Source: Bradyrhizobium diazoefficiens (GTDB lineage Bacteria; Pseudomonadota; Alphaproteobacteria; Rhizobiales; Xanthobacteraceae). From it: 64,000 nt of DNA. The position numbers and the translations under genes are program-made. Positions 41,074 through 56,749 of this stretch are shown in pieces. The stretch spans positions 124,001 through 188,000 of the forward strand of contig NZ_CP067100.1 of NCBI RefSeq assembly GCF_016616235.1. Reading direction: 5' to 3'. Under the pieces are notes generated by a model. It made no database searches and was not told the origin of the DNA. It saw nothing but the letters and a program-made list of their open reading frames with translations. The stretch's first letter is position 1; each line of letters begins with the position of its first letter.

Positions 41074-41958
41074 TTACTGAAGCGCAGTCTGAAGGTCCGG
41101 AAGGCGTGCGCAGATCATCGCCCTGATACGTTTCAGGGCACGCTGCTCGATCTGGCGAATTCGCTCACGAGAGATCCCGAAAGTGGCAGCAAGATCGTCA
41201 AGCGTTCTTTGCTCTTCTGCCATGTAGCGGGCTTCGACGATGGTCCGTTCTCGCGGGGAAAGCGCACTCAGCGCTTCCGAGAGTGCGGCCTTCTGCCGTT
41301 CACGCTCTCCGAGCTCGGCGAGCAAGGTTTCAGGATCAGGAGACGAATCGGCGAGCCGGTCCTGCCATTGTTCGCCTTCTTCATCACTGAGCTGAATATT
41401 CAGCGTCATGTCGCCACGGATCCGCCCGTTCATCTCGACGACATCGGTTTCCTTGACCTGAAGGTGCTCAGAGACCTGCTTCACCTGCTCCGGCGAAAGC
41501 TCGCCGTCGTCCGGCGCGCCTAGCTGTCTCTTCAACTTTCGAAGGTTGAAGAAGAGCTTTTTTTGTGCCGCTGTTGTGCCGAGCTTAACCAGTGACCATG
41601 ATCTCAGGACGAATTCCTGCACGGACGCCTTGATCCACCAAGTGGCATAGGTCGCCAGGCGAAATCCTTTCTCAGGGTCGAACCGTTTGACGGCCAGCAT
41701 CAGCCCGACGTTGGCTTCCGAGATAAGGTCGGCGATCGGCAATCCGTAGCGCCGATATTTCAACGCGATCTTGGCAGCAAGTCTTAGATGGCTGGTCACT
41801 AGACGGTAAGCAGCTTCGCGATCTCCGGAATCCCGAAGACGCCTCGCATACATCACTTCTTCGGATGCATCGAGCAACGGGAAGCTACGGATCTCTTGCA
41901 GATACCGGGACAACCCAGTTTCCGAATGGATCGCAGGGAGGGCTGACGTGATTGACAT
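41074..41958 (-). CDS. rpoH: Heat-shock sigma factor RpoH (sigma-32)
   Basis: 294 residues. Directs RNA polymerase to heat-shock promoters. Regions 1.2 to 4.2 are complete: SEANVGLMLAVKRFDPEKGF (region 2), the RpoH box QKKLFFNLRK, and FGISRERIRQIEQRALKRIR (region 4.2). ATG 41958 has GAAGGAGGG upstream, which overlaps the stop of a 39-codon ORF only 13 bases away, so translation is probably coupled to that ORF. In B. japonicum, as I recall, rpoH1 is co-transcribed with hspA under a ROSE element; here the ROSE remains but hspA does not. Confidence 0.96.
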   Translation of the reverse strand: MSITSALPAIHSETGLSRYLQEIRSFPLLDASEEVMYARRLRDSGDREAAYRLVTSHLRLAAKIALKYRRYGLPIADLISEANVGLMLAVKRFDPEKGFRLATYATWWIKASVQEFVLRSWSLVKLGTTAAQKKLFFNLRKLKRQLGAPDDGELSPEQVKQVSEHLQVKETDVVEMNGRIRGDMTLNIQLSDEEGEQWQDRLADSSPDPETLLAELGERERQKAALSEALSALSPRERTIVEARYMAEEQRTLDDLAATFGISRERIRQIEQRALKRIRAMICARLPDLQTALQ

Positions 41959-41971
41959 GGCTTGCCCTCCT

Positions 41972-42091
41972 TCAGAAGTCAGCGCCGCTCTTGAGCTCTA
42001 ACGAGCAGCGAGAGGGAAGATGCAGCCGCGAGAACCCACCGAGGTGAGCGAGACCGATCGACTGCCAAGCGATGAGACAGGTAGCTTTCAT
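41972..42091 (-). CDS. 39-codon ROSE-led ORF before rpoH, possibly a relic of an sHSP gene
   Basis: ATG 42091 follows the ROSE Shine-Dalgarno at the same distance as sHSP starts. Product begins MKATCLIAWQSIGLAHLGGF and ends LELKSGADF. Its DNA between about 42040 and 42070 resembles the sHSP segment encoding LWRTTVGFDHL with shifts of frame, so it may be the remainder of an hspA-like gene after deletion. Ends 13 bases before rpoH, whose binding site begins at its stop codon. Confidence 0.5.
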   Translation of the reverse strand: MKATCLIAWQSIGLAHLGGFSRLHLPSRCSLELKSGADF

Positions 42092-42190
42092 ATCCAAATC
42101 CTCCATGGAGCAAAATGGTACGAACCGCCGTGTCGCCTGACTTAGCTGGGCCCTGAGGGCGCCCAGCGACACTCAGGCCGGCGGGCGCCA
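42092..42190 (-). ncRNA. ROSE-type RNA thermometer of the rpoH transcript
   Basis: The leader ends CCATTTTGCTCCATGGAGG then ATTTGGATATG. TTGCTCC faces GGAGGAT and CCA faces TGG, the usual ROSE closing hairpin. Upstream, GGGCGCCCTCAGGGCCCAGC and GCGCCCGCCGGCC can form further hairpins. Confidence 0.8.
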
Positions 42191-42194
42191 AAAA

Positions 42195-42219
42195 AACTGC
42201 GAACCCAATAGGTTGTTCC
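42195..42219 (-). promoter_or_regulatory. Candidate EcfG-type promoter of the ROSE-rpoH transcript
   Basis: Minus strand GGAAC (42219-42215), 16 bases, AGTT (42198-42195). The CTTGAAN-N15-CTA promoter of the other ROSE units is absent here. If used, this site would place rpoH under the general stress sigma factor. Confidence 0.45.
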
Positions 42220-42236: not shown

Positions 42237-43121
42237 TTACTCAGAAAAATCGCCATCATCGGCTACCGGACTGCCGCTACCTGCATGATGAGGGGACGAG
42301 CCCAGCGGGTGGGGCTTACCATCTTGCCGCCTGCCACCTGCTCTATCGAGGTGAAGCGCGAATCCGCTGGCCCCCGGCCCCTCAAGCCCAGCGCGGAGTT
42401 GCATGCTCGGGATCAGGTAATCGCCCCCATTTTGTCGCCGATACGGAATAGGTTCGGCGGTTGCCAGGCTGCGCATCCTTTCTCGCAAGCCTTCAGCAAT
42501 AGCCTCGAAGCCGGCATCGTCCAGCCGGTCCACGCGATACACCACGAACGGCGGAAGGACTTCGTAGCCGGGATAGTAGAGGATGCCGTGGTTGATGGGG
42601 AAGAGCAGGTCGTCAATGGGGCCGTTGACGCCGCGAGGAGAGTAGTGCTCCTCCCAGCCGCCGGCGGTCACAACCAGCATGGCGCGCTTGCCCTTCAAGG
42701 TTCCATCGCCATAGCGATCGCCCCATCGCTTGTCGCTGTGTTCGCCAACCCCATAGGCAAAGCCATATGCGAACACCCGGTCGACCCAGCCCTTGAGGAT
42801 CGCCGGCATGGAAAACCACCACAGCGGAAATTGCAGAATCAGGACATCCGCCCACAACAGCTTCTCGATCTCGGCTTTCACGTCGCGGGTCAACGTGCCG
42901 GCCTCGAAAGCCTGCTTGGACGCCGCGGCTGGCTTGAGCCGTTCACCTTCGCCCAATGACGGAAAGTCGGCTCGGTCGACCTCCGATTTCCAGCCCTGGG
43001 CATAGAGATCCGATACCTGCACCTCATGACCGAGCCTCTCGAGCTCCGTGACGGCGACCTTAAGCAACGCGCCGTTCAGAGAGTGCGGCTCCGGGTGGGC
43101 GAAGACAATCAAGACTTTCAT
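42237..43121 (-). CDS. NAD(P)H-dependent flavodoxin-fold oxidoreductase (NQO1/MdaB-like)
   Basis: 294 residues from ATG 43121 (MKVLIVFAHPEPHSLNGALL). Flavodoxin_2 domain: phosphate loop HPEPHSLNGALLK, LILQFPLWWFSMPAILKGWV and MLVVTAGGWEEHYS. Two-electron quinone or nitro reductase with FMN or FAD. The last 40 residues are unlike the family and His/Gly-rich. Divergent from a LysR-type gene 92 bases away, which probably regulates it. Lies upstream of the rpoH leader on the same strand, 18 bases before its candidate promoter. Confidence 0.85.
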   Translation of the reverse strand: MKVLIVFAHPEPHSLNGALLKVAVTELERLGHEVQVSDLYAQGWKSEVDRADFPSLGEGERLKPAAASKQAFEAGTLTRDVKAEIEKLLWADVLILQFPLWWFSMPAILKGWVDRVFAYGFAYGVGEHSDKRWGDRYGDGTLKGKRAMLVVTAGGWEEHYSPRGVNGPIDDLLFPINHGILYYPGYEVLPPFVVYRVDRLDDAGFEAIAEGLRERMRSLATAEPIPYRRQNGGDYLIPSMQLRAGLEGPGASGFALHLDRAGGRRQDGKPHPLGSSPHHAGSGSPVADDGDFSE

Positions 43122-43213
43122 GAGAAGCACCTCCTGATGATGTGACATCGATCAGGTAGCGCGCCAGGCCACGATTCAGTAGATGTTGGTAATGGATAGG
43201 ATTGTGCCAGAAA

Positions 43214-56204: not shown

Positions 56205-56298
56205 ACAGTGCGGACGCTCACCGGGCGCCAACCGGGCCCGGTCATCGGACGTCAACTGTCCGCGCTCGTGACCATGTTGCTCAATGGAGGATATGGCT
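56205..56298 (+). ncRNA. ROSE-type RNA thermometer
   Basis: The leader ends CCATGTTGCTCAATGGAGG then ATATGGCTATG. CCAT/ATGG and TTGCTC/GGAGGAT pair as in the 28143 element. Intact although the gene it controls has a frameshift. Confidence 0.85.
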
Positions 56299-56749
56299 AT
56301 GACCAACTTTGATTGCTCCTCTCTGGCGCTCAAGGATTGGGTTCGATCGCCTCTTCGATCTGCTTGAAGACTCGGTGCCAGAAAGCGCCGACAACTCCCC
56401 ACCTTACAACATTGAACGGAACGGAGAGGATCACTACCAGATCTCACTCGCGCTAGCCGGTTTTGCACCGCATGAAATAACCATTACTGCGGAGCAAAAC
56501 GTCCTCACAGTAGAAGGCCGAAAGGCTGAAACGGGGGACCACCAATACTTGTACCGGGGTATTTCCGTGCGCCCATTTCGGCGTGAGTTCAACCTCGCCG
56601 AATACGTGCAAGTGAAAGGCGCCTCGTTCGAGAACGGCATGCTTAAGATCGATCTTGTACGTGAGCTCCCCGAAGCCATGAAGCCGCGGCAGATACCGAT
56701 TCAAGCCGGCAACGACAACCAGAGGCTTGAGCACCAGCAAATGGCGTGA
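56299..56749 (+). pseudogene. Class A sHSP gene with a frameshift at codon 5-6
   Basis: The ROSE-positioned ATG (56299) reads MTNFDCSSLALKDWVRSPLR and stops after 22 codons. The sHSP frame starts effectively at 56309 (TTG ATT GCT CCT): APLWRSRIGFDRLFDLLEDS, ISLALAGFAPHEITITAEQN, SVRPFRREFNLAEYVQVKGA, C-terminal IPI. Against the 28256 gene, two bases (CT) are missing after the fifth codon at about 56313. Rescue by the TTG at 56309 would place the start 18 bases from GGAGG, too far for normal use. The rest of the coding sequence is unmutated, so the loss looks recent or is bypassed. Confidence 0.8.

Follow-up and report, generated by a model that had tools for sequence, protein, structure and literature searches.

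The closest described systems are the ROSE elements of Bradyrhizobium sHSP genes (hspA ROSE1; RF00435), in which a series of hairpins places UUGCUC opposite the Shine-Dalgarno (SD) sequence and has the start codon at its 3' end; the locus that we describe here has the same features. Short leader ORFs can couple the translation of neighbouring genes, in which case the leader stop lies at or near the next SD or start codon and the peptide sequence is free. A ROSE-like element outside the sHSP genes is the thermometer of Pseudomonas aeruginosa rhlA (PMC6761213). It also affects the downstream cistron. For rpoH itself, the thermometer described in E. coli is a structure of the mRNA that spans the 5' UTR and reaches as far as 229 nt into the coding region (PMC4166951).

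We analyzed a 64,000-nt stretch (the window, C1:124001-188000) of the 7.67-Mb genome of Bradyrhizobium diazoefficiens. Its minus strand carries, in this order, a GGAAC box, a ROSE element, a leader ORF, rpoH, groES, groEL, a further ROSE-sHSP and degP (Table 1). The ROSE element matches the full Rfam model (1-94) and exceeds the gathering score of 45, and its SD GGAGGA (42104-42099) faces UUGCUC (42113-42108). The leader ORF encodes the peptide MKATCLIAWQSIGLAHLGGFSRLHLPSRCSLELKSGADF. The original prediction of a ROSE element and a 39-codon ORF in front of rpoH was therefore borne out, as was its claim that the ORF ends 13 nt before the rpoH ATG with the rpoH SD starting at the ORF stop; the region that it named ends at 42219, where the GGAAC box has its first base. 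The rpoH product scored 345.5 bits with TIGR02392, above the cut-off of 323.1, and is thus an RpoH equivalog. Directly upstream lies a gene for a KefF-like NAD(P)H oxidoreductase (42237-43136, minus strand), which is found whole before rpoH in about half of the loci with the most similar RpoH.

Table 1. Features of the rpoH unit in the window.
Feature	Coordinates	Strand	Evidence or detail
GGAAC-N16-AGTT, EcfG (ECF15)-like promoter box	42195..42219	-	GGAAC 42219-42215, AGTT 42198-42195
ROSE RNA thermometer	42085..42166	-	RF00435, 52.8 bits; relatives, consensus fold, hairpin identity 97%
39-codon leader ORF, ROSE-gated	41972..42091	-	stop TGA 41974-41972; stop placement, relatives' alignments
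rpoH Shine-Dalgarno AGGAGG	41966..41971	-	first base directly after leader stop
GCCCTCC, rpoH codons 6-8, possible rpoH SD pairing partner (tentative)	41937..41943	-	predicted fold
rpoH, heat-shock sigma factor	41074..41958	-	TIGR02392, NF005143

We searched 242 genomes of the genus for RpoH (E <= 1e-110), found it at 52 places in 47 genomes, and inspected the upstream DNA at all 52. A ROSE core gates rpoH at 45 of these places: it lies directly on the rpoH start at 19 (G122 among them), leads an in-frame fusion at one, and precedes a separate leader ORF at 25. At 14 places, where RpoH is 84-100% identical (the close clade), the order is ROSE, leader and rpoH. Sister genomes thus keep the arrangement of the window, which recurs in this clade in a further 12 distinct sequences (RpoH 84-95%). 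RpoH was 70-75% identical at another 12 places (the second group), 11 with a separate leader and one, L110, with a fusion. In L110, and likewise in L016 of B. agreste, the leader is reduced to 5 codons and fused in frame to rpoH, which starts in frame from the ROSE ATG. Counting direct and fused forms, rpoH itself is read from the ROSE start codon at 20 places. Four of the 52 places carry long leaders that fit this scheme poorly, namely L116 (RpoH 69-70%), L117, L127 and L139, whose leaders end 35, 120, 40 or 122 nt short of rpoH. These long leaders have about 75 codons behind a ROSE-like core and appear broken in L117 and L139. The ROSE core pattern was not found at three of the 52 rpoH places (L130, L140 and L160).

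The same genome has a second unit, L008 (G000:C1:4282521-4283399), with ROSE, a 36-codon leader, rpoH and the GGAAC box; its RpoH is 70-71% identical and its ROSE scored 36.7 bits, below the Rfam cut-off. A second RpoH search, in 265 genomes of the genus and with a stricter threshold (E <= 1e-125), yielded one more genome (G252, locus L188), where the leader stop lies 13 nt from rpoH. Among 248 genomes of the family (RpoH, E <= 1e-108), nine matched, six of them from other genera. In two loci of another genus, L209 and L210, ROSE is followed by a leader of 44 codons that stops 2 nt ahead of rpoH, and GGAAC precedes the leader start by 130 nt, so that the arrangement is seen in two genera; in L211-L214, also from other genera (RpoH 58-60%), no ROSE core was found within 420 nt upstream. 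A few rpoH genes were irregular: L013 and L104 (B. semiaridum) match in two frames and the match in L107 carries a TAG, which may reflect a frameshift, decay or sequencing error.

In the RpoH tree (52 rows, midpoint root), the direct loci form one clade (19 rows, support 100/98), as do the leader loci including the fusion (24 rows, 99/95). The two clades are sisters to the exclusion of the long-leader and no-ROSE rows (99/100, under the midpoint root). The grouping of the leader loci in a single clade points, on present evidence, to one origin of the leader, so that independent origins were dropped as an explanation. The fusion of L110 and L016 is nested inside the leader clade; one lineage within that clade has therefore lost the relay by fusion. 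The long leaders of L116 and L127 may represent an ancestral form; L116 is weakly sHSP-like at the protein level (E 0.04), L116 and L117 have no ROSE call, and the places of L116 and L127 in the tree are unsure.

We then compared how the ROSE element and the leader have changed. An Rfam scan of the rpoH sites at E <= 0.5 called ROSE in 26 of the 32 relatives' loci scanned, with 33-51 bits and with eight of the 26 above the cut-off; the other loci were identified by the core motif only. The calls comprised all 11 close-clade loci scanned, besides the window, all eight direct loci scanned, and seven of 11 in the second group (not L107, L108, L110 or L111), and there was none at the two long-leader loci scanned at this threshold (L116 and L117). 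The motif U(U/C)GCU, which in ROSE lies opposite the SD in the 3' hairpin (PMC3669281), holds that position in all 29 aligned sequences, as UCGCU in L008 and L126 and UUGCU in the rest. The consensus fold of these 29 is supported by compensatory changes, both partners being altered in seven of 19 pairs; six of the seven belong to the 5' hairpins and one to the 3' hairpin, which hardly varies: it is 97% identical in the close clade (12 sequences) and also 97% with L103. The fold program predicted little change at the ROSE SD between 30°C (0.29) and 42°C (0.34). The window has five ROSE elements above the Rfam cut-off and the genome six; the other five in the genome lie on sHSP genes (four) and on a frame-shifted sHSP (one). 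A second ROSE of the window (56221-56305, plus strand) leads an ORF of 22-24 codons because the sHSP behind it (56299-56749, plus strand), which is 69% identical to another copy, seems to carry a frameshift in its first codons; this sHSP is possibly a pseudogene or begins at a TTG further on.

The separate leaders are 17-45 codons long, and in all 23 distinct sequences of the two main groups their stops fall between -10 and +14 nt relative to the ATG of rpoH. A coupled leader is expected to have its stop at or near the downstream SD or start and to keep it there in relatives, and this is what we found, except in the four long-leader loci. Since the leaders vary in length and peptide and yet form one RpoH clade, the stop placement has been kept through much change. 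When the window leader was dinucleotide-shuffled, 5.7% of the shuffles had their first stop at -12 to +15 nt relative to the rpoH start, a range chosen after the leader stops had been seen. The per-locus shuffle P was 0.0185-0.066 in 18 of 23 loci, 0.13-0.18 in three and 0.74-0.82 in two; because the leaders share one origin, these values cannot be multiplied. None of the 12 close-clade leaders has an in-frame internal stop, for which neutral simulation gave P 0.065-0.203 depending on the seed, and in frame +2 no more than two of these 12 leaders contain an internal stop, so the open frame alone is weak evidence.

The leader peptide has drifted. Codons 6-39 are 75% identical in the close clade (12 sequences) and 70% with L103, and pN/pS is 0.93 in frame and 0.67 and 0.76 in the other two frames (11 sequences), as against 0.11 for rpoH (first 200 codons, 10 sequences). 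Close-clade leaders carry indels of 12, 6 and 12 nt, whereas five of six flank indels are 1 nt (one-sided Fisher 4/84 = 0.048, calculated by hand, excluding L103 and the alignment ends); the leader of L103 contains a 4-nt gap. In the second group, gaps of 33 nt and 3 nt lie inside leaders with the same stop, and L113 and L008 differ by 39 nt. The reading frame did change in L103, L106/L112 and L115, although the stops still lie at -10, +3 and -7, respectively. Judged from these sequences, the leader peptide is unconstrained and appears to have no sequence-dependent job.

The rpoH SD of the window is predicted to be mostly paired, with a probability of being unpaired of 0.14 in the long fold and 0.26 in the local fold. 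In 28 loci this probability was lower than in 28 predicted strong-SD genes of the same genome, the window included (P 0.019 for the long fold and 0.0012 for the local fold, the loci not being independent). The predicted partner in the window is rpoH codons 6-8; because this pairing shows no compensating changes, the hairpin stays tentative. When the leader was held unpaired in silico, the rpoH SD of close-clade loci stayed paired (0.14 to 0.16 in the window), in a calculation that treats the RNA alone, without a ribosome on the stop. A ribosome standing on the leader stop would cover the rpoH SD.

In 45 of 47 rpoH sequences, GGAAC precedes the start codon that ROSE gates by 118-129 nt (absent in L116 and L117; the 47 leave out L122 and the three loci without ROSE); it occurs in none of 28 ROSE-sHSP genes examined, several of which are near-copies. 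What is conserved is GGAAC-N16-NNTT: TT is preceded by AG in the window and elsewhere mostly by AG, GG, AA, CA or GA, and a perfect GGAAC-N16-CGTT is present only in L127. GGAAC-N16-CGTT is the EcfG1 motif of R. etli, where EcfG1 drives rpoH2 (PMC3892343). A survey of alphaproteobacterial rpoH genes places rpoH2 genes under sigma-24, and its main text speaks of neither ROSE nor a thermometer (PMC4843759). An ECF sigma factor of the EcfG type may transcribe the rpoH unit; we infer the type from the N16 spacing, which resembles the EcfG box, although the letters before TT differ from CGTT.

The original prediction had suggested that a deletion may have turned an hspA-rpoH operon into a thermometer-leader-rpoH unit, and had seen in parts of the ORF a resemblance, with frame shifts, to the 5' region of an sHSP gene. 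The order of parts was confirmed and the deletion origin was not. At none of the 52 places in the 47 genomes of the genus did an sHSP lie between ROSE and rpoH (tblastn with one sHSP query at E <= 1e-8, by which a worn remnant could be missed), so the supposed ancestral order is absent from these relatives. The resemblance dissolved on alignment: beyond codon 3, the best score of the window leader against eight sHSP genes was 18.0, as against 17.8 +- 2.1 for shuffles, and its best protein match had an E of 0.18. Fifteen of the 27 leaders were locally aligned with the eight sHSP genes, and their scores too fell within the shuffle range (fraction of shuffles at or above the observed score 0.165-0.83). 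The first codons do resemble sHSP starts, but they belong to the ROSE element or adjoin it. L116 and L117 come closest to the imagined operon: upstream of their long leader and rpoH, a same-strand ROSE-sHSP pair lies about 570 nt before the ROSE core of the leader. In L175 (RpoH 53%, outside the 52), such a pair lies about 0.9 kb upstream, and in none of these loci is it located between the proximal ROSE core and rpoH. With no such sHSP at the 52 places and alignments at the level of shuffles, the ORF in the sister genomes is largely to be regarded as old and unrelated to hspA, and we consider an hspA remnant the least probable explanation of all.

The explanation that we favour, with somewhat better than even confidence, is a thermometer-gated sigma factor unit in which an ECF-type promoter is followed by a ROSE gate and by a sequence-free leader that relays the gate to rpoH by translational coupling. 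An ECF sigma factor of the EcfG type would transcribe the unit, and ROSE, at the 5' end of the mRNA, would hide the ribosome site of the leader at normal temperature. Heating would loosen the ROSE hairpin in vivo and let ribosomes translate the leader; on terminating at the rpoH SD or start codon, they would re-initiate on rpoH. The leader ORF would thus be a relay, extending the reach of the gate by about 130 nt. The thermometer is under selection and the peptide is without visible selection, which implies that the output lies beyond the leader. That the leader ends at the rpoH start, and that 20 places read rpoH from the ROSE start codon, suggests that this output is rpoH. The original claim that heat-controlled leader translation feeds rpoH is, with the predicted coupling, plausible. 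What speaks against the coupling are the predicted folds, in which the ROSE SD hardly responds to heating and an unpaired leader leaves the rpoH SD closed, as well as the frame changes and the four long-leader loci. Whether rpoH could alternatively be translated from its own SD, with the leader as a spacer and ROSE gating only an unimportant peptide, has to be weighed against this. A strong AGGAGG at the usual spacing, the unconstrained peptide, and a frame whose openness is not significant alone and is nearly matched by frame +2 all agree with independent initiation. However, it leaves unexplained why the ROSE hairpin is 97% identical beside a drifting peptide, why the stops stay at the rpoH start, and why ROSE, in the sister clade, lies immediately at the start codon of rpoH, and we regard it as rather unlikely.

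Leader translation might instead shield the mRNA from Rho or RNase, so that ROSE would set the transcript level and not rpoH initiation. Such protection likewise predicts a leader that is open up to rpoH and free in peptide sequence, but predicts neither stops so near the start nor the direct and fused forms, and seems improbable to us. Even less credit goes to a functional regulatory peptide, acting by stalling or signalling. The leader length of 39 codons in nine of 12 aligned close sequences (window included) would suit it, whereas a pN/pS of 0.93, near 1, the dissimilarity of the peptides across the group, and the window leader having no Pfam match at E <= 1 led us to reject it. Relay by coupling to rpoH remains our preferred reading. 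Its wider form gives chances that we put at just short of even: that ROSE is relayed by a sacrificial ORF to a sigma factor more than 100 nt away, that the only selected property of the leader is to end at the next start, and that, together with the GGAAC promoter, this would make a two-input RpoH switch for general stress and heat.

Among the literature matches listed, drawn mainly from openly available papers, none described a leader ORF in front of rpoH that is gated by a thermometer. Since ROSE here precedes the gene of the heat-shock regulator, a single RNA switch could let heat govern an entire regulon, and the direct, fused and leader-relayed forms in one gene family offer a natural series on whether a thermometer can act at a distance by translational coupling. 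R. etli rpoH2 resembles the unit in being an rpoH gene in the EcfG1 regulon and differs in that the available text of PMC3892343 mentions no thermometer or leader ORF for it. Compared with the sHSP ROSE elements, the ROSE of the rpoH unit has no sHSP behind it but a leader ORF and rpoH, and the unit has the GGAAC box that none of the 28 ROSE-sHSP genes has. The rhlA thermometer controls the gene of an enzyme, whereas the leader here seems dispensable as a peptide, and compared with coupled leader ORFs in general, this leader has a start that is itself thermometer-gated. As in the E. coli rpoH mRNA thermometer, mRNA structure would give temperature control of sigma-32 translation, but the unit of the window uses a 5' ROSE element plus a leader ORF.
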